Assembly (NCBI GenBank): GCA_958295785.1
Contig: OY282377.1
Coordinates: forward strand, 758,394-822,393
Origin: an uncultured Latescibacterota bacterium
GTDB lineage: Bacteria; Latescibacterota; UBA2968
Length of the DNA stretch: 64,000 bases
Direction: 5' to 3'
The notes beneath the pieces are model-generated. The model was not told the origin of the DNA. It searched no databases and was given only the letters and a program-made list of their open reading frames with translations. Position numbers and translations under genes: made by a program. Positions 12,291-33,965 of this stretch are shown in pieces. Within the stretch, counting starts at the first letter, position 1. Each line of letters opens with the position of its first letter.

Positions 12291-14284
12291 TCAAAAATAC
12301 AAACTGTGCCCTTGCCCGCGGAAGCACAGGGCGTCGATGACAAAGGACGCGCCAGCCGCGGAAAAGTGCCCGACCACGAGGCCGACAAAAACGGGCTTGG
12401 CGCGGTTGTAGAGCATCAGGCCGCCGAAGCGTATCAGTAGCACTTTGAGGGCCCAGGCCGCGAACAGGGACAACAGAGTCCACTTCACTTGCCCGACAGA
12501 GGCGATAGAAAACCCGATGGGGTGCAGGCGCCACCACGCGAACCGATGGCGACAGTACGTCAGCAAAATGGTGACGAGCGCGCCCAGGGCCAAAAACGCG
12601 AAGTGCCCGAAGCGCAGGGTTTCTGCGGCTTTCATTTTCGCCACGACCGTATCGAACGGCACTTGCCCGCCGCGCCGAAAGACCCATTCCCCAAAATTGT
12701 ACGCGCCCGAAGTGTAGGCCAGTTTGAGAGAAAAATAAAAGGATACCATCAGGCTGAGCACCAGGGCCAAACCCACGGCTGTGAGGTACGCGCCGCGCGG
12801 AAATTGCCGCTCGCTGTGGACGCGGGCCGCGTTCGCGCCAAAGGGCATAAACGTGGCAATGGGGTCGCACGCCCATCCGTAGGACAGCGCGAGTCCGGTC
12901 ATGGTCGCGCCCGTCAAATTCGCCGGGCCGACGAAGTGCATCGCGTACGCCTGCGGCACGAGCGGGCCGCGCACAAAGACCAACCCGCCTTCGATGACGA
13001 TGCGCGTGAGGCCCAGATAGAGGGTGATGACCGCAAAGAGCAGCAGCAAGGCCACGCCCGGCTGGATCCCGACCCGATGCGCGTCAGCCAGAACAGGATG
13101 TATAACGCGCCGAGCGCGATGCCGAGCAGGGCGGTGCGATAGCCCACGATTTCATCGCGGTCTGAGATGCCATTGGCTTTGCCCCAGGCGGTTCGCCACA
13201 CCCCGCGCAGATGTTCGCGCGCGACCCATATCCCGCCCATCACAACAGCGACAAACGCCCCAAAGCCCTGCCACGCCAATGCGGCTGGGCTGACCGAATA
13301 CACCTCGGATGTGCCAATGGCAAAGCCCGTGCGGTTGAACAGCGCGACCTCGGCCAGGTTGAACAGGTTGAAAAACCACACGCTGAAAATCACATCCACA
13401 TTCACAAAATACGTGATGCCCACCAACGGTAGCGATAGATTGGTCGAAATGCCCGGCCAGACCTGCCCGCCTGCGATATTCAATCGAAGGGCCGGGATAT
13501 TCGGCCAGCCGTCAAAAAAATACCCCGGCACATTCCACGCGATTTTGCCCGCGGCAATGCCAAAGCCGATCCAGAACAATCGGCTCCGCATAAATTTTGG
13601 CAACAGGCGATTCTCACTCGCGCCTTCCATCATCATCAGGGGGACATCGACCAGCGGAAAGTTGAGCCGTTCTTTATCGACCCACTGCTTGCGAAATACC
13701 GCGATGAGACACGTACAAAGCACCAGCGTTGCGACGATGATCGATCCCCACCAGAACAGGGGCATGACCCACACGCCCCATGGAATATTCGCGCCCGGCG
13801 GCAAGCCTTCAAAAAACCACGCCACTTCGCGGCCTTCGCCGGGCACGGCCCACAAGGGCACATGGCTGTGGATGAACTCTGCCCATCCATTTTCGGTCGT
13901 GGCAAAATAAAAGGGCGACGCGGATACGGAAATCACATAGCCGGTCACCCCATACGTGGGCACGGATACCGCCGCCAACAGCATCATATAGACCACGCCC
14001 AATTCATCGCCCGTCAGGCCGCGTTCGCGCTTTGCGGCTTTCAAGATCGGGTTGAGCACTACGACGACAAAAATGAACAACGCCGCCAATCCCAGGGGAA
14101 AATAATTGGTGGTCAAGAGCGTGGATCGCACAATCCATTCGGAAAACGGCGCCAACAGATTCACCGCAACGACGACCAATACCCCAACCGCCAAGGCTTT
14201 TGGCGTGAGGACGGGCCGTTGTTCACGCGGCGTTTCCGATGTTTTTGGTTGAAAGGATTGTGCCACGATTGGGGGTCTCAGCAT
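12291..14284 (-). pseudogene. DUF6785-type (OPT-like) polytopic membrane protein, one apparent frameshift
   Basis: About 660 residues with a dozen or so membrane segments, paralogous to the intact gene at 33966-35939. Shared landmarks are YGVTGYVISV / YDGVTGHLIGV, FATTENGW / FATPENGW and RKQWVDKERLNFP / RRQWVDHERLTYP. The first frame runs from ATG 14284 to about 13060; the second continues with GVALLLLFAVITLYLG to the stop at 12291. One extra G in the GGG run near 13065 (minus-strand ATCGGGTCGGGATC) joins them perfectly, so this is either a recent one-base loss or an assembly error in a functional gene. Related OPT-family proteins carry peptides or metal chelates; the substrate here is unknown. 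Confidence 0.82.
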
Positions 14285-14495
14285 GAGTGGTCAGTGGTCA
14301 GTCCCCGCCCATCCGCTCCCTTCAGATAAGATGGCAGTTTATCCACAAAAAACACGAGCGGGGTATAACTGCGGTGTGTGTAGGGGCGATACCCCTGTGC
14401 TCGCCCTAAGAGGTGAGAGGGCCGCTCCGCCCTCCATCATTCCGGCGAAAGCATGCCCCTGTATGCTTAAAGCAGGGGCATGAATCCAGTGACTT
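14281..14495. repeat. Intergenic dispersed-repeat block
   Basis: The 266-base gap between the lyase and DUF6785 genes is mostly repeats. It has a GTGGTCAGTGGTCAGTCCCC spacer (14287 on), a GTAGGGGCGA/CTGTGCTCGCCC palindrome (14380-14406) and a CATTCCGGCGAAAG...GAATCCAGTGAC palindrome (about 14437-14493). The last encloses a second hairpin with ATGCCCCTG and CAGGGGCAT arms. No gene is seen. Confidence 0.7.
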
Positions 14496-14550
14496 TTGTC
14501 TTTTCCCCTCGCTCGTTCTTATGTGTTCTTATGTGGTTGCTTTTCGCTTC

Positions 14551-16740
14551 CTAAACCATTTGCCCTTCTCGAATCTCTTGCCCAGAGACCCGCACTGTTT
14601 GTCCATTTACGAGTATCAATTTTTCGACCCATTTATCGATCATTGTCATAGCACCGGCTTCGGCGTCTGTTTCGCCTTCTATTGCGTGTAGCCAGCCTTT
14701 GCCCGTTTCCGATTGGATGAAGTAAATTTTCCGGCCGTCGCGCAGGGCGATCCGTCCGGCAATGGCAACGCGGTTGTTGTCGCCCACAATGGGAATGCGT
14801 TCCACATGGATCACGGGCGATTCCTCGCCCGGTTTGACGGGATACAAAATGTATGTCATCGCGGCTGGGCCATAGCCTTCGATTTTGAAAATCGCCGTTG
14901 GAATGGGTTCGCACTGATAGGGCCCGCCGCGGGGAATCCAGCCCTGTACGGTCGGTTCTTCTTGTCCGCTGACAATGCGGGCGTCTATGGGTTTGGTCGC
15001 AAGGCCGCGAATGTCCAAGTTGCTCTCGGCTTGCCCGTTTTTTGTGATGACCTGCCGCCCATCTGATAGCACGTCTGCATCATCCGCGTCGAGGTGGAAC
15101 ATGGCTTCATACGTGTGGGACGCATGATCTGAGGGCTTGAGAATGTCCGTGACGATCCAGAACTCGGGTTTGACGAACAAAATTGACCGCGTGTGCGCGA
15201 CTGTTTGGTCCCGATTCGGGCCATATCCCAAATCGTAGGTCGCGGACGCATAATCGCATTTTTCGTTTGATATCCACGTATGGGGCAGGGGCTTGGATAC
15301 CACGTAGTCCTCGCGCGATTTCCCGCGCTGGTTTTGCTCCATGCCATCGACCATCACCGTATTGTGTGCGCGGGTTGACAGGACGTACGCACGCCATTGG
15401 GACGAGTCGTAGGGATAATTCCCCGGATCGACCACATGCACGCGCCCGTGCGCGTAGAGTACGATGTTCAACTTGTCTTCGTGCTGATGCCCATAGCCAA
15501 AGGGCCCGCCGTCGAAAAAGAGGTAGCGATCATCGGGTTGCCATCCCGACCGCATGACAAAATGCCCGGCAAAGGGAAACGCGCACGACAGGGTTTGCGG
15601 CTTTGTGCCCTCGGCGCGCGCCGACGCCGCCCATTGAAAATCCGTGCGTTTGGGGAAAAACTTGAACCCGCCGCGCATATAGGGCGCGATGTCTGTTTGA
15701 CCGCCGTCATTGAGCGCGGGCAAGCGCAAGTCGGGCATGGCCAAATACAGGTCGTAGTGGTACATCCGCTCCAATTTGGCGACGTAATCCGCTGGCACGG
15801 GCAAGTCGTTCAACCGTGCGATGGCCAGGGCCATCACAAAATTTCGCAGGCTCACTTGATGGTAGCCGCTCGACAACTCGATCTGCGCGCCGTCGGGATA
15901 GACCTGCGCGTCCAATTCTCGATAGAGCGACTGCATCGCAAGTTCGCGCCATTGCGCGGCTTCTTTGAACTCGGGAAACAGCGCGCCGACGTGGTATTGC
16001 CCATTGGCCTGCATGGTTTGCCAGTTGCCACTGCGCGGCCATTGTGTGAGATGGCGGGCGTGCTCGACCATGCTTTTTACCATCAAACACACGTCGTCAT
16101 CGGCGAATGTTTTGGAGGACAAAAAATAGTAAAACGCCGCGGGCCAGGTTTGCCCCATCCGAATCCCACATTCAATCGTGCGCCAGCAATTTGTGCGATC
16201 CGTGCCCATCTCGGCGTCGTCTTTCCAAGTATTGCCATCCTCATCCATGGGCACCAGCACCTGTTCTATCCAGTGCCGCATTTGCCGCACAAATGCCTCG
16301 GCGTATTTTTCGTCGCCGGTTTTCCAATACGCCTGCCCCAGCGTGACCCAAAACGGATGGCGCGACAATTGCCACGTCCATTCCCGGTAATTGATCGGGT
16401 CCAATTCCCAGTTGATCGCGTCTCCAAAGGCTTCTTCCACATCGCTACTCATCAGCGTATTCGCCACGATGCGGTCGGCCTTTGCGAGATCGACGTCTCT
16501 GATCGCGCGGTCTCCCACCCTCACCAGTTCGACCTCTGCATCCCTATCTTGTGGCTCTGACCGATTTTGCCAGTCGGAAAACCATTTTGGATTTTTGCGC
16601 GTGCGGATGTGTTGGGCAAACGCGCGCCGCGCGCCGGGCCAATCCCGTTCTTCGACCGCCGCTTTGACCGCCGCCATATCTGCACGCGACAAATTGAGTG
16701 CGTCAAAAAATGCCGCATCGCTCAACCGTGGTCCCATCAT
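14551..16740 (-). CDS. Heparinase II/III-type polysaccharide lyase
   Basis: A 729-residue lyase-like protein. The N-terminal half is an alpha-toroid domain (for example NANGQYHVGALFPEFKEA and IELSSGYHQVSL, with candidate Asn, His and Tyr of the active site). The C-terminal half is a beta-sandwich opening with FAGHFVMRSGWQPDDRY and GPFGYGHQHEDKLNI, the heparinase II/III signature including a conserved His. Such enzymes eliminate uronic-acid-containing polysaccharides (heparan, alginate and similar). AAGGAGGAAGAC precedes the ATG at 16740, a strong start. No signal peptide is visible, so it may act on imported oligomers. It heads the minus-strand set that includes the DUF6785 membrane protein and the sulfatase-like enzyme. 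Confidence 0.88.
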   Translation of the reverse strand: MMGPRLSDAAFFDALNLSRADMAAVKAAVEERDWPGARRAFAQHIRTRKNPKWFSDWQNRSEPQDRDAEVELVRVGDRAIRDVDLAKADRIVANTLMSSDVEEAFGDAINWELDPINYREWTWQLSRHPFWVTLGQAYWKTGDEKYAEAFVRQMRHWIEQVLVPMDEDGNTWKDDAEMGTDRTNCWRTIECGIRMGQTWPAAFYYFLSSKTFADDDVCLMVKSMVEHARHLTQWPRSGNWQTMQANGQYHVGALFPEFKEAAQWRELAMQSLYRELDAQVYPDGAQIELSSGYHQVSLRNFVMALAIARLNDLPVPADYVAKLERMYHYDLYLAMPDLRLPALNDGGQTDIAPYMRGGFKFFPKRTDFQWAASARAEGTKPQTLSCAFPFAGHFVMRSGWQPDDRYLFFDGGPFGYGHQHEDKLNIVLYAHGRVHVVDPGNYPYDSSQWRAYVLSTRAHNTVMVDGMEQNQRGKSREDYVVSKPLPHTWISNEKCDYASATYDLGYGPNRDQTVAHTRSILFVKPEFWIVTDILKPSDHASHTYEAMFHLDADDADVLSDGRQVITKNGQAESNLDIRGLATKPIDARIVSGQEEPTVQGWIPRGGPYQCEPIPTAIFKIEGYGPAAMTYILYPVKPGEESPVIHVERIPIVGDNNRVAIAGRIALRDGRKIYFIQSETGKGWLHAIEGETDAEAGAMTMIDKWVEKLILVNGQTVRVSGQEIREGQMV

Positions 16741-16935
16741 GTCTTCCTCCTTATTCCATCGCTTGACAACGCCATATCCCGCACTACTTTGTATTCTCCG
16801 TCAGAAGATAGCGCAATGATGTTGACCCGCCACTGTTTTTTGATGAGGTATCGAGATGGCAAACGCGAGACATGCAAATTGATGATAAAAAAATTCAGCG
16901 CGGTTGGATGCGAAATGTATGCGTGCGCCACAGGA

Positions 16936-16968
16936 AAAAAAACACCCACAAATTCTGGGTGTTTTTTT
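16936..16968. terminator. Bidirectional rho-independent terminator
   Basis: A perfect hairpin with arms AAAAAAACACCCA and TGGGTGTTTTTTT and a 7-base loop, with A/T tracts on both sides so it can stop transcription in either direction. It separates the lyase cluster from the GC-rich dehydrogenase gene. The rest of the gap 16741-17083 holds no gene that can be supported. Confidence 0.85.
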
Positions 16969-17083
16969 GATTTTGTATGTGAATCGGGCTATTGGGGGTC
17001 GAGATGTGGTTCCAAAATTTTACGTATCTGTAGATGCGATACCGCCTCCCCCCGCCTCCTCGCCCCCCGGGCCCAAGCGGGGT

Positions 17084-18997
17084 CTACTCAACCAGGGGAA
17101 CGAACCTGCGCCATGGCCGCCACTCCGTTTTCCTGTCCGCCCGCAGCCGGAACTCGTGGGTGGCGCCGCAGACCTCCGGCGCCGGCGCGTCCCAGCGCAG
17201 CACGAAGCCGCCGAGGCTGTCCGGGACCGCGGTGACGACCTCACTGTATGCCACCTTGCCGTTCGCGGCCCGCGTACGGAGTTGCGCGGCGTATTTCCTT
17301 CCGGGCGTGATGCCTGCGATCCGGTGGACGAGGATCAGGTCCTCGCGCCCGTACGCCCGCTCTTCGGCGCCGACGCGGAGACCCTCGATGGCGTAGGGGC
17401 CGCGGCCGATGAATCCCACGATCTGTCGGGCCTCCTCCGCGGTGAGCGCCGGGCCGGTCATGGTGGTTCCGGGAGCGAACCCCTGCGGGTCCACGAGGTA
17501 GCGTTCCATGTCGCGGGGCGTCCAGACCCGGTTCAGGGATCGCAGGGCGTCCGAGAACCCGGCGAAGCCCTCCACTGCGCCCGCGCGCCTGCCGAGCGCG
17601 CCCACGAGATGGGGCCCGGCGCGATGGGTTTTCTTGGTCAGGGAGTGGCACTTGGCGCAACGCTGAACGAACAGACGCGAGGCGGGGCAGGTCAGCATGG
17701 CGGCGCGATCCTCTTCGATGTGGCGCAACAGTTTGACCCGGCTCGAATCGAGCAGAAGGGCCAGACGGCCGTCCGGCAGGAAGGTCAGGTCGCGGATCCG
17801 GTCGCCGACCAGGATCCTCTCGACATACTGGATGACCCGGCCGCGGCGGCGCACCCGGAAGATCGAGTGGCCGCCGGGGATGCCTTCGATGTAAGAGGTT
17901 CCGCTCAGCGAGACGATCAGCAGATCGTCGTCCCACAAGGGAAACGCCCGGCGGTCATTCACCACCAGAGCGGAGATTCCCGGCGACGGCACCCAGGCGA
18001 AAACGGGCCGCGTGAAGCCGTCGTGCCGACCCCCGCTTCCATCCTCCCGAGCGGGCCATTCCCAATACGGGAGACCGTAGCTGACCTGCGGATAGCCATA
18101 GTGCCGGCCGGGTTCGAGCAGGTTGAGTTCGTCGCCGCCGCGCGGCCCGTGTTCGGTGGCCCACAGGTCGCCCGCCGCGTCGCGCGCCAGCCCTTGCGGA
18201 TTGCGATGCCCGCGCGTCAACGTTTCGGCGGCGCCGGTGCGTATTTCGATGCGGAGGAGTTTACCCAGCTCGACTTCGTCATCCAGAAGTTCGTCATCGC
18301 TCGCGCCGTGATGCCCCACTATGACCAGGAGGTGGTCCGGGCCATCCGTCAACATGCGTCCCCCGGCTAATCCCCCGGTGAATCCCGGTCCGAAAGAGTG
18401 CCGCGCATCGAAAACCGTCCTCCAGGCGTCTGATACCTCCACCGCCGGCCCGTCTCGAAGCAGCGTCGTGGATGACACCCGGAACAGGAAACGCTCCCCG
18501 GTGAAGTAGTGGTGGGAGACGAACAGCTCGAAGTGCCCGGCCGAATGCTCCTTCAGCAGAATGTCCGCCACCCGGACGGAGTGTGAGGGGATTTTGATTC
18601 CCGGCCCGCCCATCGGAACCTGGCCATCGAGATACCGATGCGCGCCATCCGTGGTCATGAGGGCGAGTCGGCCTTGCCGCGTGGCGATGAGCAGGTCGCG
18701 GCCCAGGACCTCTATCGCGCCGCCCGTCCCGGCGGGCTCGAGCGAGTAGGTCTCGGTCTCCAGCGCATACAGATGGGTTTGCAGGACCTCGGGAGGAGGC
18801 TGGGTCTGTAGCGTCTGGGTTTGCAGGACCTCGGGAGGGGGCTGGGCCTGTAGCGTCGCGGTCAGAGCGAACGCCAGCCAGGCCAGAACCGCGATGACCA
18901 CCGCTGTCCGTAGGCCGCGCCGCCACGGTGACCAGGGCGGCGCCACCGGCGGACCCCTGCGGGAGGGGGAGGGTACTGTTAAAGTGCATATTTTCAT
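17084..18997 (-). CDS. PQQ-type sugar dehydrogenase fused to cytochrome c
   Basis: A 637-residue protein with a positively charged N-terminus and hydrophobic segment (residues about 30-50), so exported or membrane anchored. The middle is a soluble-glucose/sorbosone-dehydrogenase beta-propeller with GHRNPQGL and ATEHGPRGGDELNL. The C-terminal part has a heme c site CAKCH at about residue 447 and a likely Met ligand in GTTMTGP. It would oxidise sugars in the periplasm and pass electrons to its own heme. A 14-residue unit (QPPPEVLQT type) is doubled near residue 55. No ribosome site precedes ATG 18997, so the start is unsure. The DNA is far richer in G+C than its neighbours and uses other codons (CGG, CTG, GAG), suggesting transfer. 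Confidence 0.85.
   Translation of the reverse strand: MKICTLTVPSPSRRGPPVAPPWSPWRRGLRTAVVIAVLAWLAFALTATLQAQPPPEVLQTQTLQTQPPPEVLQTHLYALETETYSLEPAGTGGAIEVLGRDLLIATRQGRLALMTTDGAHRYLDGQVPMGGPGIKIPSHSVRVADILLKEHSAGHFELFVSHHYFTGERFLFRVSSTTLLRDGPAVEVSDAWRTVFDARHSFGPGFTGGLAGGRMLTDGPDHLLVIVGHHGASDDELLDDEVELGKLLRIEIRTGAAETLTRGHRNPQGLARDAAGDLWATEHGPRGGDELNLLEPGRHYGYPQVSYGLPYWEWPAREDGSGGRHDGFTRPVFAWVPSPGISALVVNDRRAFPLWDDDLLIVSLSGTSYIEGIPGGHSIFRVRRRGRVIQYVERILVGDRIRDLTFLPDGRLALLLDSSRVKLLRHIEEDRAAMLTCPASRLFVQRCAKCHSLTKKTHRAGPHLVGALGRRAGAVEGFAGFSDALRSLNRVWTPRDMERYLVDPQGFAPGTTMTGPALTAEEARQIVGFIGRGPYAIEGLRVGAEERAYGREDLILVHRIAGITPGRKYAAQLRTRAANGKVAYSEVVTAVPDSLGGFVLRWDAPAPEVCGATHEFRLRADRKTEWRPWRRFVPLVE
18774..18857. 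repeat. Two tandem 42-bp repeats inside the dehydrogenase gene
   Basis: Units 18774-18815 and 18816-18857 differ at only a few bases and duplicate a 14-residue Pro/Gln-rich linker after the signal/anchor segment. The length is a multiple of three, so the frame is kept. Confidence 0.8.
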
Positions 18998-19150
18998 TAG
19001 TTTACAGAAATAGATGGCGTTGCGGTTCGGTCACTGCGGCCAGCCATCACAGGTAGTGGGCGACGGCTCCGCGGCGGCGGTTCGTCGGTGCCAGTGCTCG
19101 CTGTCCACGAGCACGTACTGGCCGGTGCTGATGCGGGTAATATTATTACT
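18998..19150 (-). other. GC-rich spacer with a possible coding remnant at the island edge
   Basis: The DNA stays very G+C-rich to about 19135, then turns abruptly to AATATTATTACTCTAG, after which the J-protein gene has the usual local composition. On the minus strand a frame reads RISTGQYVLVDSEHWHRR before a TGA stop; it may be the tail of another gene carried with the island, but I could not name it. Confidence 0.3.
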
Positions 19151-19585
19151 CTAGAAACCGAACCAAATGAGGATCCCCAAAATTACGGTCATGCAGATCA
19201 GCAGGATGACCGTCCACTTGAACATGCGGGAAAAGCTGTTTTCGATCCTGTCTAGGCCCTCTGACATATCTTTGTGAAATTCGTCAAATTGCTGTCCAAA
19301 TTGATCGAAGGATTCTTTCATTTCCCCAAAGGACTGCTCCATTCTGTCAAAGGACTGCGTCACTTCGTCAAACTGATCGAACAATGTATCGAGATCGGAT
19401 CGCTCGCGTCCGGTCAGCACGCGATAGGCCTGGGCACCCTTCTTAAATGCCTCTTCGGCCTCTGGATTGTTCGGGTTGCGGTCGGGATGATGCTTGAGCG
19501 CGTAGCGGCGAAACGCCCGCTTGATCGTCTCTTCCGAGGCGTTCTCATCAACGCCCAAAATAAGACGGGCTTGTCGTCGTCTCAT
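19151..19585 (-). CDS. Membrane-anchored J-domain protein with coiled coil
   Basis: ATG 19585 gives a 144-residue protein. Residues 1-65 are a J domain with the HPD motif in KHHPDRNPNN, which would stimulate an Hsp70 (DnaK) ATPase. Residues 68-122 form a heptad-like array rich in Phe, Met, Asp and Gln (SFDRMEQSFGEMKESFDQF), predicted coiled coil. Residues 123-144 are a C-terminal hydrophobic helix ending in GILIWFGF, so the protein is tail-anchored with the J domain in the cytoplasm. It has no Gly/Phe or zinc domain and is not a full DnaJ. The gene stands alone, with dispersed spacer repeats upstream. Confidence 0.82.
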   Translation of the reverse strand: MRRRQARLILGVDENASEETIKRAFRRYALKHHPDRNPNNPEAEEAFKKGAQAYRVLTGRERSDLDTLFDQFDEVTQSFDRMEQSFGEMKESFDQFGQQFDEFHKDMSEGLDRIENSFSRMFKWTVILLICMTVILGILIWFGF

Positions 19586-19865
19586 AGGTTCACTCGGTGG
19601 TCGGTGGTCAGCGGTCAGGAAACCAAGCGGTAATCCCATCCATCGCTTTGGGCGGATGGGGGAGGCTGAAAGCTGAAAGCCGATAATCAAAATAACGCAC
19701 CTGAAAAGAAAACGCAAGACAGAGCAGAACAATACCCCTGCAATTTTTTTGTTTTTGCCGTGAGAGATGCCTATATTGCACCTCCACATGAAAGATTGAG
19801 AGGATAGAAACGTAGGGGCGGTGCCCCCGTGCCCGCCCGAAAAGGCAAGATATAAGGAGGCGATT

Positions 19866-20681
19866 ATGTTTTGCGACATGCAGCGACGGCAATACAGGAA
19901 GCAGGGGTTTTTTGTCGTGGATGATGCCGTGGATCCCGATATGTTGCAACCGCTGTTGGCGGCAGTGATGCGCGCCAAGCAAAAGGTGCGTTCGGGGAAA
20001 GTGGATTTGTACACCCATCGCTCGGCAGATGGCGAACCCTGGGCCATTCGCGGTTTGTTCGCGCCCGAGATGAACGAGCCGATTTTTGCCGAGTATTTGA
20101 TGTCTGAACCCGTGATGAAATACGTGCGTCCGTTTTTGGGCACGCGGTTGCAGTTGGGCGGGGCACTCATTTTCACAAATCCCTATCAGGCGGATTACGG
20201 GTTTGGTTGGCATCGAGATTTTGGGGGCAATGAACGCGACGGGTCGTATCGGGTGGAAATGAAAATTTTGAAACGCCCGCAGCGGAGTTTGAAATGGCAT
20301 TTGGCACTGGTGGATGACGAGTGTTTGCAAATTGTGCCGGGCAGTCACAAGCGGTATCGCACGGCCCATGAGCGCAGGTGCTTGTTGGAGGAACGCCACG
20401 ACGATATTTCGGGTCAATACGCCGTGCCGCTCAAGGCGGGGCAAACCGCGTTTTGGAGTGGCAATTTGATTCACCGCGGGGTGATGAAAAGAGATGTGGA
20501 ACGATTGACGCTGGCGGGCAGTTGGAGCATGTACGCGCCGGGCGGCGAACCCACCGAGACAGACCCGCGCCTGAAATGGATGCTGGCGGACAATGTGCGC
20601 GGATTTTTGCCAAAAGCGATGCGTCCGTTGTACGATCGGTGGCGGGAAGGACAAAAGGCGGATCGCGGATTAAACGGATGA
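19866..20681 (+). CDS. Phytanoyl-CoA dioxygenase-like Fe(II)/2-oxoglutarate oxygenase
   Basis: ATG 19866 follows AAGGAGG at a good distance and gives 271 residues. The iron ligands of the 2-His-1-carboxylate triad are seen as WHRDFGG (HxD, about residue 116) and NLIHRGV (distal His, about residue 202). The downstream Arg in DVERLTLAGSW may bind 2-oxoglutarate. PhyH-like enzymes hydroxylate small molecules or lipids. Two more members occur at 37891 and 38874 but with different sequence around the HxD motif. The gene is flanked on both sides by dispersed repeats and has no operon partner, so no substrate can be suggested. Confidence 0.87.
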   Translation: MFCDMQRRQYRKQGFFVVDDAVDPDMLQPLLAAVMRAKQKVRSGKVDLYTHRSADGEPWAIRGLFAPEMNEPIFAEYLMSEPVMKYVRPFLGTRLQLGGALIFTNPYQADYGFGWHRDFGGNERDGSYRVEMKILKRPQRSLKWHLALVDDECLQIVPGSHKRYRTAHERRCLLEERHDDISGQYAVPLKAGQTAFWSGNLIHRGVMKRDVERLTLAGSWSMYAPGGEPTETDPRLKWMLADNVRGFLPKAMRPLYDRWREGQKADRGLNG

Positions 20682-20966
20682 CACGGATTACGCGGATGAA
20701 AGGCGAAAGAAGTGCAAAGTGCAGAGTGCAAATGACCGCTAAAAATCAGCTATCGGCTATCAGTCCCCGCCCAACCCCAAAAGCGAAAAGCAACCGCATA
20801 GGGACGCATAAGAAAGATACAAGGATAGAAACGTAGGGGCGATGCCCCGTGCTCGCCCGAAAAGGCAAGATACAAGGCGGATCGCGGATTAAACGGATTG
20901 CGCGGATGAAAGGCAAAGGCAAGAGGCCAGGATAGAAACGTAGGGGCGATGCCCCCGTGCTCGCCC
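20655..20966. repeat. Dispersed-repeat block, 354-base gene-free gap
   Basis: The gap between the oxygenase and the enolase-superfamily gene holds two GGCGGATCGCGGATTAAACGG repeats (20657 and 20877). It also has two GTAGGGGCGATGCCCC/GTGCTCGCCC palindromes (20833-20858 and 20940-20966) and a CAGCTATCGGCTATCAGTCC spacer motif. Identical short strings such as GGATAGAAACGTAGGGGC recur next to each palindrome. No gene was found. Confidence 0.75.
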
Positions 20967-21035
20967 GAAGATACGAGACTTAAGAAGGACTAGGGCATGG
21001 TGTGGACGGATGGGCTGACAACTGAAAGCTGTTTT

Positions 21036-22145
21036 ATGAAAATTACCGATGTCGAAGCCATTCACTTGCGGTTGCCCAAAATTGTGGAGGCAGCCGATGG
21101 GACGCAGGATTGCCTGATCGTGCGCGTGCAGACCGATGCGGGCATTGTGGGCTTGGGCGAGGTGGTGTCGTGTTCTTATGTGGGCAAAGCGGTGATTGAA
21201 GCCCCTCGCTCTGCGCCGTTTCGCCATGGATTGGCGGCGATTGTCACCGGGATGGACGCGCTCGATTTGGATGCGATTCACAATGCGATGATCCAAGGGG
21301 TGTCGTGGTACGGCCCAGGCGGTGTGGCGCGGCACGCGATGAGCGGCGTTGATATGGCACTGTGGGATATTCGGGGCAAGGTGGAAGGCAAACCCGTGCG
21401 GAAATTGTTGCGGGAAGATGCGGCAGATGCGGTGCCCGCTTATGCGAGTGTGTTGTGGCCCGAGCGTCCGGAATTGGTGCGGGAATCTGCCGAGCAATTT
21501 ACCGCGCAGGGGTATCGGGCCGTGAAGTACGGTTGGGCGCCGATGGGGCCAGATGCGGCGTTGGACGAGGCACTGGTGGCCGCGGCGAGAGAGGCTTTAG
21601 GCCCGGATGTGAATTTGATGGTGGATGCTGGTCGTGCGTGGGATGCCGAAACCGCGCTGGGCCGCGTGGCGAGATTTGAGAAATACAATGTGTTTTGGCT
21701 GGAGGAGCCGCTGCATCCCTTTGATGTGAAGGGGTATCGCGACGTGTCGACGCAGTCGTCCATTCCGATAGCAGGGGGTGAGGCGATGACATTGGTGGGC
21801 GAATACGCGGATTTGTTGCACAATGGGAAAATTCATTTTGTGCAACCCGATCTGGGGCGCGTGGGCGGTATTACCGGCGCGCTGGCGATTGCGCGTTTGG
21901 CAAACGAGACGGGCGCACGGGCCGTGCCGCATGCGTATGGCACCGGCGTGTTGTTGGCCGCGTCAGCGCAATGGGCCGCGGCGAGCGAACAGCCCCTGAC
22001 AGAATACACGCGAGCACCATCGCCCTTGGCGCGCAATCTGGCGCGGCACGGAATGGCGTTTCGAGATGGCGCGTTGTGTCTGACGGATGACCCCGGACTG
22101 GGCATGGCGTTGGATGAAGATGTGGTGGCAAAGTTCAGGGTGTGA
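21036..22145 (+). CDS. Mandelate racemase/muconate lactonizing enzyme-family protein (enolase superfamily)
   Basis: ATG 21036 is chosen because the protein then opens MKITDVEAIHLRL, the usual first strand of the capping domain; length 369. The barrel carries the three metal ligands in LMVDAGRAWD, FWLEEPLHP and IAGGEAMT, and a likely general base His in AVPHAYGTG. On the opposite face the usual KxK/KxH is VKYG, so one acid/base residue may differ. Such enzymes abstract a proton alpha to a carboxylate in acid-sugar dehydration or racemisation. This fits a genome rich in sugar-acid enzymes, but the substrate is unknown. The gene lies alone between repeat-filled spacers. Confidence 0.88.
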   Translation: MKITDVEAIHLRLPKIVEAADGTQDCLIVRVQTDAGIVGLGEVVSCSYVGKAVIEAPRSAPFRHGLAAIVTGMDALDLDAIHNAMIQGVSWYGPGGVARHAMSGVDMALWDIRGKVEGKPVRKLLREDAADAVPAYASVLWPERPELVRESAEQFTAQGYRAVKYGWAPMGPDAALDEALVAAAREALGPDVNLMVDAGRAWDAETALGRVARFEKYNVFWLEEPLHPFDVKGYRDVSTQSSIPIAGGEAMTLVGEYADLLHNGKIHFVQPDLGRVGGITGALAIARLANETGARAVPHAYGTGVLLAASAQWAAASEQPLTEYTRAPSPLARNLARHGMAFRDGALCLTDDPGLGMALDEDVVAKFRV

Positions 22146-22395: not shown

Positions 22396-23502
22396 ATGCG
22401 GTTTCGGCGATGGTGTCTTGGCGTTTTGATGATGGCGGCACTTGTGGGCTGCCAAACGCTCGATAGTCACGCGGAAACCAAGGTGTACAATTTCAGCGGA
22501 TTTACCGGGGTGCGCGCCAGTGCCGCTGTCGATGTCGAACTCACACAGGGCGAGGCTTTCAGGGTGGTGGTCGATACTGAGGATGGGGATTTCAGCGGCT
22601 TGGAACTCGAGGTGAAAGATGGCTTGCTCATTGCCACGCGACCCGAGAAGCTATGAAAAAATAAGACTTTATCGATCCGGCGCGTGGATGGGCGGCGCGT
22701 TGTCGAAATAGATGGCGAATCCGTCCCCACCTACACGGTGCGCGTCACGGCGCCCCGTATTGACCATCTCGGCGCGTCTGTGAGCAGCATTGTAATGGCG
22801 GATCGGATCGAAACCCGAAAGTTGGACATCGAGGCTTCTTCCTCGGGTGATATTCGCGCCAAGATCGCGGGCGGCGATGTGTCTGTGGGTGCGAGCAGCA
22901 GTGGCGATGTGCATGTGTCGGGAACGTGTGACAAATTGGACATAGACGCGAACAGCAGTGCGGATGTGAGGGCGGACGATCTCACTTGTCAGCAGGGCGT
23001 TTTGAAGGCTTCTTCTTCGGGTGATATTCGCGCCAAGATCGCAGGCGGCGATGTGTCTGTGGATGCGAGTAGCAGTGGCGATGTGCATGTGTCGGGAACG
23101 TGTGACAAATTGGACATAGACGCGAACAGCAGTGCGGATGTGAGGGCGGACGATCTCACTTGTCAGCAGGGCGTTTTGAAGGCTTCTTCTTCGGGTGATA
23201 TTCGCGCCAAGATCGCGGGTGGCGATGTGTCTGTGGATGCGGGCAGCGGTGGCGATGTGCATGTGTCGGGAACGTGTGACAAGTTGGACATAGAGGCGAA
23301 CAGCAGTGCGGATGTGAAGGCGGATAAGCTCACATGCCGGCGGGGCGATTTACAAGCATCCAGCGGTGCGGATATTGTCGTGCGGTTGACCGACACGGTG
23401 ACGGCCCACGCCAATTCTGGCGGCAATATTGTGGTGCGCGGCGGTGCAACGCCAATTAAGGTAAAAGAAACGAGTGGCGGCGATGTCTCGATCCGAGATT
23501 GA
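22396..23502 (+). pseudogene. GIN-domain (DUF2807-like) lipoprotein interrupted by an in-frame TGA
   Basis: ATG 22396 follows CGAGGAGGAATAACA and starts a lipoprotein signal with lipobox LVGC. The next part, VYNFSGFTGVRASAAVDVEL, is typical of the start of head-GIN/DUF2807 adhesin-like domains. At 22654-22656 the frame meets TGA after RPEKL. Without any shift it then continues KNKTLSIRRVDG and runs 282 more codons to 23502, so the two parts are one gene with one stop codon. The tail is a right-handed-helix-like array of Ser/Gly/Asp/Val units including three near-identical 58-residue repeats. It would sit at the cell surface or periplasmic face. TGG to TGA (Trp) is the simplest cause. Neighbouring genes end with TGA, so UGA is a stop here. 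Confidence 0.75.
22847..23368 (+). repeat. Three tandem 174-bp repeats in the GIN-like lipoprotein gene
   Basis: The string GTGATATTCGCGCCAAGATC recurs at 22847, 23021 and 23195, exactly 174 bases (58 codons) apart, and the units are nearly identical. They encode the SSGDIRAKIAGGDVSV / DVHVSGTCDKLDI / ADVRADDLTC segments, each with two Cys. Near identity implies recent duplication or ongoing conversion; a fourth, diverged half unit follows. Confidence 0.9.
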
Positions 23503-32177: not shown

Positions 32178-32622
32178 TCACTCGGTGCTTGGCTTGGTGT
32201 GTGTCAATGATGCGGTTGTTGGGGCGTTTGAGGGTTTGGCGAAAAAGTCGGGGATGGCAACAACGGGTTCTCCGAGGGACAGACGCATGAGCGCGTCCTG
32301 CATGCAGCATGCGGGTTCGTCGGCGCAGGGCGCGGTGCGATTGTTTGAAGCACGAAGAAAATGGGAGGGCAGATTTTGGTTTGGCTCTTGTAAGAGTCGG
32401 AACAGACCTTATTTTCCGTCCCGTCCCACTCGGCACAACTATATCGCCCTGCAAAACATAGACATAATGAGCAATATCAGGAGCATGAACCTCATTCAAT
32501 ACATTCTGAAAAACCCCCTCATAACGCGCCACAGAAGCCGGCACCCTATGCGGTTCATTTGTACTCAAGCGACTCATAGACTTGCCAACCTTATGTTTCA
32601 AATCCGCTATCATATCCGCCAT
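32178..32622 (-). pseudogene. Hypothetical protein of an A+T-rich operon, frame interrupted
   Basis: AAAGGAGATCTAAA precedes ATG 32622, a strong start. The first 75 residues (MADMIADLKHKVGKSMSRL, later VHAPDIAHYVYVLQGD) look genuine. That frame runs on to 32080 straight through the terminator hairpin with a low-complexity Arg-rich tail, which is unlikely. Another frame over 32180-32400 reads CADEPACCMQDALMRLSLGE and VVAIPDFFAKPSN and stops just before the terminator. I infer one gene with a shift between about 32400 and 32420. No family recognised; the Cys pairs near the end might bind metal. Confidence 0.45.
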
Positions 32623-32674
32623 TTTAGATCTCCTTTCTATTCACCAATCACCCATCACCATCTCATAAACAAGA

Positions 32675-33080
32675 TCAGATCACATCATAAATAGACTTCT
32701 CGCCCCCATCCGTCAACTTATCCCACAATATCAAAATCTTCCAAGCATCATCCCTCTCATGTCCTAAATCCATCAATCCCTTGACCAAACGCTTCCGCCA
32801 ATACAAACTTTCCCTCTTCTCTCCATTTTTCTTTGTTACAAATATCCGCTTTCCATCCAACACTGCAAGCACTTTTCTCTGCAAAAGCAACTCTCTAATA
32901 CGTCCATCCTCATTTCCCTTTTTTCCTTTCACCACCCATTCTAAAACCCGTGACAACAACCCCCCCCTTCATCATCCCCTGCATCCCTCCCAACATCCCC
33001 CGCCGCTCGTCCTTATCGCCTCCATCTGACGCCTCAACAACACCCAATGTCTGTCTCACAATGCACCGCCATTTTCTCAT
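32675..33080 (-). pseudogene. Hypothetical protein, first gene of the A+T-rich operon, frameshift at a G run
   Basis: The firm part is a 94-codon frame ending at 32675 with LSRVLEWVVKGKKG, LAVLDGKRIFVTKKNG and RKRLVKGLMDLGHERDDAWK, basic and partly helical. Upstream the frame is blocked. If the run of eight G (minus strand, about 32960) is read as seven, the frame extends through RRGMLGGMQGMMKGG and TLGVVEASDGGDKDE to ATG 33080, giving about 135 residues. The stop lies 52 bases before the next gene's start, so the two form an operon. Flanking DNA is poorer in G+C than the rest of the window. No known family; possible function unknown. Confidence 0.5.
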
Positions 33081-33499
33081 ACGACAAAAGGCAATAGACT
33101 ACTATCGCTTTTTCACAAAATTTTCAAATTTTTATCACCAGCACATCTCCACCCCGGGTCGCTTCCTTCTATATACTAGTGAAAAAACGACCGAAAAATC
33201 GAAATTATACAGACTTTACTGCTTATTTTTTTCTGACAGGCACCTCCCGATCATGCCCATCAGAAAATCCCGATCATGCCCGTCAAAAAATCCAAATTTC
33301 AATGAATCTGACACCTACCATGATACCCAGAATAACAAATATATCGCCGTTCACCTTCAACAACAGACAGATAACATTTTTGCTTTTTGCATCTCTCGAT
33401 GAGACAGGGCCTATCTTTGAGACAGGGCCTATCTTTGACGGGTTTGACCGGCGTCAATGGCCGAGGAAATGCACAAGAAAACAAGCTCGACATCATCAC
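33081..33499. other. A+T-rich gene-free stretch with a short tandem duplication
   Basis: No coding frame here can be supported. A TATAAT box (minus strand, 33204-33209) lies upstream of the 32178-33080 operon, but no good -35 was found. An 18-base direct repeat, GAGACAGGGCCTATCTTT, is present twice in tandem at 33400-33435. Confidence 0.5.
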
Positions 33500-33502
33500 T
33501 AA

Positions 33503-33614
33503 GAAGCCCTAACAGAAAGAGTTGACATGGATTTGTGAGAGGCCGACTTTGAGGCGTTCCTGCGGGTGTTCACTCCTCTGTTTCAGACGCTTGATTTCTT
33601 TATGGTAGGGCTTC
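33503..33614. mobile_element. MITE copy 2, 112 bp
   Basis: Same length and ends as copy 1 with several point differences. The flanking triplets do not match (TAA on the left, TTA on the right), unlike the other copies, so this copy may have recombined or the target site has mutated. Its right end is 8 bases from the stop codon of an outer-membrane-barrel remnant. Confidence 0.85.
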
Positions 33615-33622
33615 TTACATCC

Positions 33623-33915
33623 TCAATACCAAATATGCGAAAAATGTACACCGACACCGAACATTGTTGTGCCAGATTCAGGTCTGCTCCAAGTCGCGTC
33701 TAAAACGATGATCCAATTCTTTGAAGACCTCGTGCCCAACGCCGATACTGAGTCCAAATCCCGAATCGGAGGAACGATCATCTTCAAATGGCGCGGCAAC
33801 AGTATTGAATCCAATGACTGCCTGAATGAAATTGGCATTGGGCCACGGACCACCGCCTTTATCCGAAAAACAGTTGCTATTTTGGGTATTTTGGGCGACT
33901 TTAGAATCTGCTCAC
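33623..33915 (-). pseudogene. Outer-membrane beta-barrel protein remnant
   Basis: On the minus strand one frame reads KGGGPWPNANFIQAVIGF and GFGLSIGVGHEVFKELDHRF. A shift then leads to a second frame ending LDATWSRPESGTTMFGVGVH...HIWY and a TGA. Alternating polar/hydrophobic strands and a terminal aromatic residue are the mark of an outer-membrane barrel C-terminus. No start codon or signal is left, and the frame breaks once near 33700. A dead fragment next to MITE copy 2. Confidence 0.5.
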
Positions 33916-33965
33916 AAATCTTCGGTTTTGATCTTCGCGTTGCAAAAATATAAGGATTTATACCT

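Follow-up and report, generated by a model that had tools for sequence, protein, structure and literature searches.

The GC-rich island, its gene and the insertion site

The window, i.e., the whole stretch of 64,000 nucleotides of an uncultured Latescibacterota bacterium analysed here (758394-822393 in the genome), carries a GC-rich island between a heparinase II/III-like gene and a phytanoyl-CoA dioxygenase (PhyH) gene. The only long open reading frame (ORF) of the island encodes a 637-aa protein in which a PQQ-type glucose/sorbosone dehydrogenase domain (GSDH) is fused to a cytochrome c. The features of the locus are as follows.

14551-16740, minus strand: heparinase II/III-like gene, left flank, in the same place in congeners
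16110-20987: duplicated segment of 4.9 kb including the island (copy A); copy B lies at G000:C1:1115778-1120300, G000 being the window's own genome
about 16843-19850: stretch of about 3.0 kb missing from 10 congeners, possibly more than one event (flank matches and alignment)
16936-16968: terminator-like hairpin with a T run, left of the island
17034-19138: GC-rich island (GC profile)
17048-17083, minus strand: GC-rich, foldable stretch 3' of the dehydrogenase stop codon, 10 to 36 nt of it common to copies in other phyla
17084-18997, minus strand: gene of the 637-aa GSDH-cytochrome c protein (ORF list, Pfam)
18774-18857, minus strand: 42-nt unit of the N-terminal linker, repeated in tandem here and present once in copy B
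19010-19097, minus strand: possible degraded C-terminus of a GDSL/SGNH hydrolase, weak, by eye
19098-19156, minus strand: scrap derived from the 3' end of an FFLH-domain gene (ITRISTGQYVLVD); it extends over the final codons of the J-domain ORF
19151-19585, minus strand: 144-aa ORF with a J-domain and a membrane helix
19821-20681, plus strand: PhyH gene, right flank, in the same place in congeners

A sequence-only reading had described a GC-rich island with one PQQ-type dehydrogenase/cytochrome gene, a sharp change of composition and codon choice at 17035 and 19135, and a gene without the spacers usual in the window, and all three descriptions were borne out. The GC content was 67.7% at 17034-19138, compared to a mean of 56.2% (SD 2.3, maximum 61.5%) in 231 overlapping segments of the same length elsewhere (step 250), and a two-breakpoint likelihood fit placed the core of the island at 17043-18973 (68.7% versus 54.2% GC). 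GC3 was 0.815 in the dehydrogenase gene and 0.66-0.70 in four neighbouring genes. The spacer repeat at 19785-19865 matched seven other places in the window, all outside the island, and tens in the genome. Elsewhere in the window, the stretch 32250-33950 was mostly 43-47% GC, an anomaly opposite to that of the island, with no convincing gene by eye, and an ORF at 22684-23502 encodes a tandem array of nearly identical repeats, each about 58 residues long (SSSGDIRAKIAGGDVSV...).

Eleven genomes of the genus were searched, one being the window's own. In all ten others, the heparinase gene (match to about 16843) adjoins the PhyH gene (match from about 19850) with a gap of 65-146 nt; this empty site was aligned base by base in nine congeners, and in the tenth (G007, reverse strand) it was placed by coordinates alone. 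The stretch missing from the congeners exceeds the GC-rich island and carries the J-domain ORF in addition, which among the 11 genomes was full length only at the window locus and partial in copy B. The FFLH scrap recurs at 12 further places in the examined loci of the window's own genome, and a motif written by hand from the possible GDSL/SGNH remnant resembled loci L062 (E 0.001), L078 and L060.

The encoded protein consists of an N-terminal hydrophobic helix (residues 25-49), the GSDH domain (100-425), a cytochrome c domain (about 440-530) and a tail (532-637) in which a likeness to fn3 was seen by eye only. GSDH (PF07995) scored 138.5 bits in Pfam against a cut-off of 25 (E 4e-40). Cytochrome c (PF00034) stayed just below its gathering cut-off (20.6 versus 21.3 bits), which relatives of the protein in L050, L055 and L056 exceeded; phmmer comparison with cytochromes c gave E 3e-14, and the marks of a class I cytochrome c, CxxCH and a distal Met, were read by eye as CAKCH and GTTM. 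Like the soluble aldose sugar dehydrogenases of the GSDH family, the protein exceeds the profile cut-off and has RNPQGL and EHGPRGGDELN in register with the solved members 2g8s and 7cdy in a profile alignment, motifs (RNPQGL, EHGPxGGDE) that presumably have a role in GSDH proteins. Unlike them, it adds a cytochrome c fusion, a C-terminal tail and variable loops, and it missed the cut-off of the glucose/sorbosone subfamily TIGR03606 (46 versus 434.55 bits). No PQQ-repeat family of Pfam matched the protein at E 0.01. The predicted structure had a mean pLDDT of 65, being good in some parts of the propeller and poor for the loops and the tail. Among six sequences compared over residues 71-637, change was highest at residues 551-560 and 311-320, then at 531-540 and 131-140, and CxxCH was conserved in all six. 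These features point to a probable PQQ sugar dehydrogenase that passes electrons to its own haem c. The substrate would be an aldose or an oligosaccharide, with electrons presumably moving onward from the haem to the respiratory chain; the hydrophobic N-terminus suggests export of the protein, and the variable loop around residues 311-322 may alter substrate preference.

Relatives in other phyla, the second copy and the FFLH domain

We scanned 84,980 species genomes, from which the window's own may have been left out, with two peptide patterns, so that relatives without these patterns were missed. The 43 relative loci comprised 22 in Dehalococcoidia, six in Caldilineaceae, six in Pseudomonadales, four in Latescibacteria, two in Bryobacterales, two in Entotheonella and one in another Gammaproteobacterium. 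The four nearest loci found were a frame-broken copy in Entotheonella, with 90% DNA identity over 1328 nt and 83% over a further 597, a Bryobacterales locus (89% over 1700 nt) and loci in two Pseudomonadales genomes (86%), of which one carries two copies. These loci have GC contents of 63-65%, and the sequence that they share with the window starts 73-255 nt inside the ORF at the 5' side and, at the 3' side, continues for 10-36 nt beyond the stop codon. The window protein is 72-78% identical to copies in other phyla, compared to about 50-56% for the other long matches in its own genome. Within the phylum, 44 of 60 genomes had some match at E ≤ 0.001. Long relatives at 54-57% identity were present in G046, a genome of the same class, and matches beyond G046 and the window's own genome were partial with at most 41% identity, except for stretches of fewer than 100 residues reaching 53%.

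In a maximum likelihood tree of 53 rows, made from selected ORFs with short, broken and some paralogous ORFs excluded and with the Entotheonella gene represented only by its first-frame stretch, copies A and B (see below) nest among three other phyla on starred branches. The third copy of the same genome and three rows of the other Latescibacterota genome were placed elsewhere. A single Latescibacterota clade of six rows was rejected by an AU test designed after the tree was seen (p-AU 3e-42), and a clade of three Pseudomonadales rows was weakly rejected (p 0.038). Pattern matching in viral contigs returned no relatives of the dehydrogenase or of the FFLH domain. Among plasmids, 349 records matched the dehydrogenase, none covering 80% of the query; identities were 31-41% among the 15 matches listed, which do not include the one record in the 60-80% band, and FFLH had one marginal match (32%). 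Carriage by phage or plasmid was rejected on these distant and partial plasmid matches and the viral contigs free of relatives.

Copy B of the duplicated segment lies 341 kb from copy A and aligns with it in two blocks, 95.6% identical over 3285 columns and 99.2% over 1300, lacking part of the J-domain gene and containing only part of the heparinase gene. With the sites deleted in B and the duplication ends left out of the count, the copies differ at 82 of 1866 positions in the gene and at 13 of 2308 in the flanks (about eightfold, Fisher p 2e-17), and at none of 200 in the rest of the island. The differences are clustered in blocks. Of the 11 sites at 18000-18100 where the copies differ, copy A agrees with L060 and L062 (Pseudomonadales) at 10, and at 18300-18700 the base of the other phyla is commoner in copy B than in copy A, so that copy A may carry an unsampled allele there. 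This block-wise divergence suggests allele replacement after the duplication, in one or both copies. Excluding the frame-broken Entotheonella gene, dN/dS (Nei-Gojobori) was 0.87 between A and B, 0.42-0.79 between these and four genes of other phyla, and 0.29 between two near-identical Pseudomonadales genes; such values appear high for an enzyme, and relaxed constraint would fit them as well.

The scrap upstream of the dehydrogenase gene is all that tblastn found at the window locus of an unnamed 110-aa domain, here FFLH. Of 60 genomes of the phylum, two contain matches to the domain, the window's own and G046, with 29 each, and the remaining 58 have none. Among 12 genomes with dehydrogenase relatives, 11 had 19-66 matches and the remaining one had two, a sample that is not independent since the genomes were picked for holding such relatives. 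In the class of G064, two of 197 genomes contain FFLH, G064 among them, and in the order of the Bryobacterales genome G061, one of 150 does, namely G061 itself. In 54 loci, some of them overlapping, 98 of 1532 ORFs carried the domain at E ≤ 1e-4, in most cases as one to three copies. Its partners include GSDH-cytochrome and arylsulfotransferase domains, and further partner modules had a weak glycosyltransferase likeness below cut-off. The domain was modelled with a pLDDT of 94 in an Ig/fn3-like sandwich arrangement with no clear relative; Foldseek returned none at E ≤ 0.001 (best 9.4e-3), the best Z scores were 7.6 for a LacZ sandwich and 7.2 for centyrin, and no Pfam or NCBIfam family above cut-off lies on the domain in the proteins scanned. 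Two candidates were taken as chance, Subtilosin_A on the domain in L060 (below the Pfam cut-off, E 6e-4, 18 residues) and one PDB sequence relative at E 0.038.

FFLH was also noted in L048, L049, L050, L052-L054, L056, L057 and many of L060-L102, in some cases as tandem copies and joined to a variety of modules. The stretches L048:8000-18000 and L050:6400-19100 hold clusters in which further dehydrogenase genes stand with arylsulfotransferase and possibly glycosyltransferase-like genes, some of them stopped or split between frames, and ORFs in L052:17-4123 resemble type III CRISPR-associated genes by eye.

Origin of the gene

The locus combines three marks of horizontal transfer, a phylogeny discordant with the host, an empty site in congeners and a deviant composition. 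Considering these together with the duplication and the excess divergence in blocks, the best explanation, to which we give a probability of roughly 0.8, is acquisition across phyla from a high-GC donor, followed by duplication of the locus and partial overwriting by other alleles. A high-GC bacterium of another phylum would have donated the gene to the Latescibacterota bacterium, probably in this direction, from a gene pool whose present members occur in Candidatus Entotheonella, Bryobacterales and Pseudomonadales. The gene would have been placed, with the FFLH scrap and the J-domain ORF, between the heparinase and PhyH genes, the locus would then have undergone duplication within the chromosome, with partial overwriting of one copy of the gene or of both. 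Weighing against this explanation are the high dN/dS, the broken frame of the Entotheonella copy, the lack of a mobile-element gene among the six window proteins scanned and the cytochrome c score below the Pfam cut-off. Of the two explanations that the sequence-only reading had offered, recent transfer from a high-GC donor and a chimeric join in the assembly, the former is supported by relatives of 86-90% identity and 63-65% GC, by the empty site in 10 of 10 congeners and by the AU rejection. The phylogeny of the dehydrogenase, which that reading had named as a check, placed copies A and B among three other phyla and spoke against a single Latescibacterota clade.

The transfer could be real and the gene nevertheless a passenger without a working role, an apo protein in a host lacking PQQ synthesis, with its copies drifting apart. 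PqqC had no match in the window's genome and PqqE had none above cut-off; related copies in the genome contain a stop or are split between frames, and the dN/dS between A and B would agree with such drift. PqqE matched in 14 of 14 genomes and in 14 of 14 control genomes, exceeding its cut-off in three only, and PqqC exceeded its own in these same three of the 14 (Bryobacterales G061, Entotheonella G063 and Gammaproteobacterium G069), hits that serve as the positive control for PqqC since 0 of 14 control genomes matched. Against a passenger, the reading frame stays open for more than 600 codons in A and in B, with RNPQGL and CxxCH identical in the two, though EHGPRGGDE of copy A reads EHGPHGGDE in copy B. 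Moreover, drift alone would not suffice, since the divergence runs in blocks and 10 of 11 sites of one block match open alleles elsewhere, and we consider this explanation unlikely. If the enzyme works, the simplest inference is that its PQQ may be supplied by neighbours, given a genome without a PqqC match and without PqqE above cut-off.

That the 3' end of the FFLH-domain genes acts as a site dedicated to DNA recombination, with the dehydrogenase carried as cargo by a cassette-type mobile element, appears very improbable. The scrap does lie immediately upstream of the gene in the window and, as judged by eye, immediately downstream in L060, and over 30-36 nt it matches Dehalococcoidia genes at 97-100% identity. 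Against this, the uniformity of synonymous codons is spread over the whole domain instead of being concentrated in this 30-36-nt core, on which ground the recombination site was rejected, and the loci L061 and L063 that we examined have no FFLH ORF. Moreover, no mobile-element gene or recombinase was seen among six window proteins scanned, and the 10 neighbouring ORFs that were scanned in loci of other phyla included no transposase. A tRNA scan of 14000-22000 found no tRNA, by which tRNA-borne integration was rejected too.

An ancestral gene that is merely GC-rich, kept here and lost in the congeners, might be suspected from the other family members in the window's genome and in G046, but other Latescibacterota copies stand elsewhere in the tree. 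Together with the AU test, the higher protein identity to other phyla than to the genome's own long matches and the empty site in all ten congeners searched, this refutes the idea on present data, and we give it only a marginal chance. The chimeric join, for which the sharp composition edges would be expected, is very unlikely because an identical false join would be needed twice: the genome is a single contig of 5,660,449 bases and 99.34% completeness, and the island stands at two sites 341 kb apart within matching duplicated flanks, while the gene itself differs at 82 sites between A and B.

Known transfers and a possible community gene pool

A sponge setting is suggested by the genus Entotheonella and by bin names of related genomes that we take to be sponge-linked; no host is named in the record titles, and none of five papers listed by an accession search has a title on sponges. 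For sponge symbionts, transfer between phyla is already known (PMC8163846, PMC9531527). The main text of Robbins et al. (2021) reports 4963 lateral transfers in five sponges, fibronectin III proteins included, and shares with our case an exchange across phyla; in that text 'pqq' occurs 0 times, and we saw no such duplication with an allele mosaic described (PMC8163846). Kelly et al. (2022), on Ircinia microbiomes, give tree evidence for horizontal transfer of a steroid gene set that spans 11 classes in 10 phyla, involving other genes and a low omega, in contrast to the high dN/dS observed here (PMC9531527). Two papers (PMC9531527, PMC12993501) count PQQ-named proteins from sponge metagenomes and from Latescibacterota of sponges among the eukaryotic-like ones and name them PQQ repeats or domains, whereas the window protein matches GSDH. 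Among the papers listed in our literature searches, which covered few subscription papers, we found no description of the GSDH-cytochrome c family or of its transfer.

We may tentatively speculate that the GSDH-cytochrome c genes and a larger FFLH set form a freely recombining community gene pool across at least five phyla, in which loops are reshuffled and PQQ comes from a few members; this remains the less probable side of the question. If true, substrate recognition would evolve at the level of the community, and a few PQQ makers would supply the rest.

With its empty site, later duplication and block divergence after arrival, all in a single-contig genome, the locus is a clean case of transfer across phyla, as these features allow the transfer to be separated from assembly error. 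In addition, the locus points towards a common pool of redox and glycan-related genes with probably extracellular products, and towards FFLH, a so far undescribed domain with many copies in unrelated phyla. It also gives a testable prediction, namely that PQQ would be cross-fed between members of the community.
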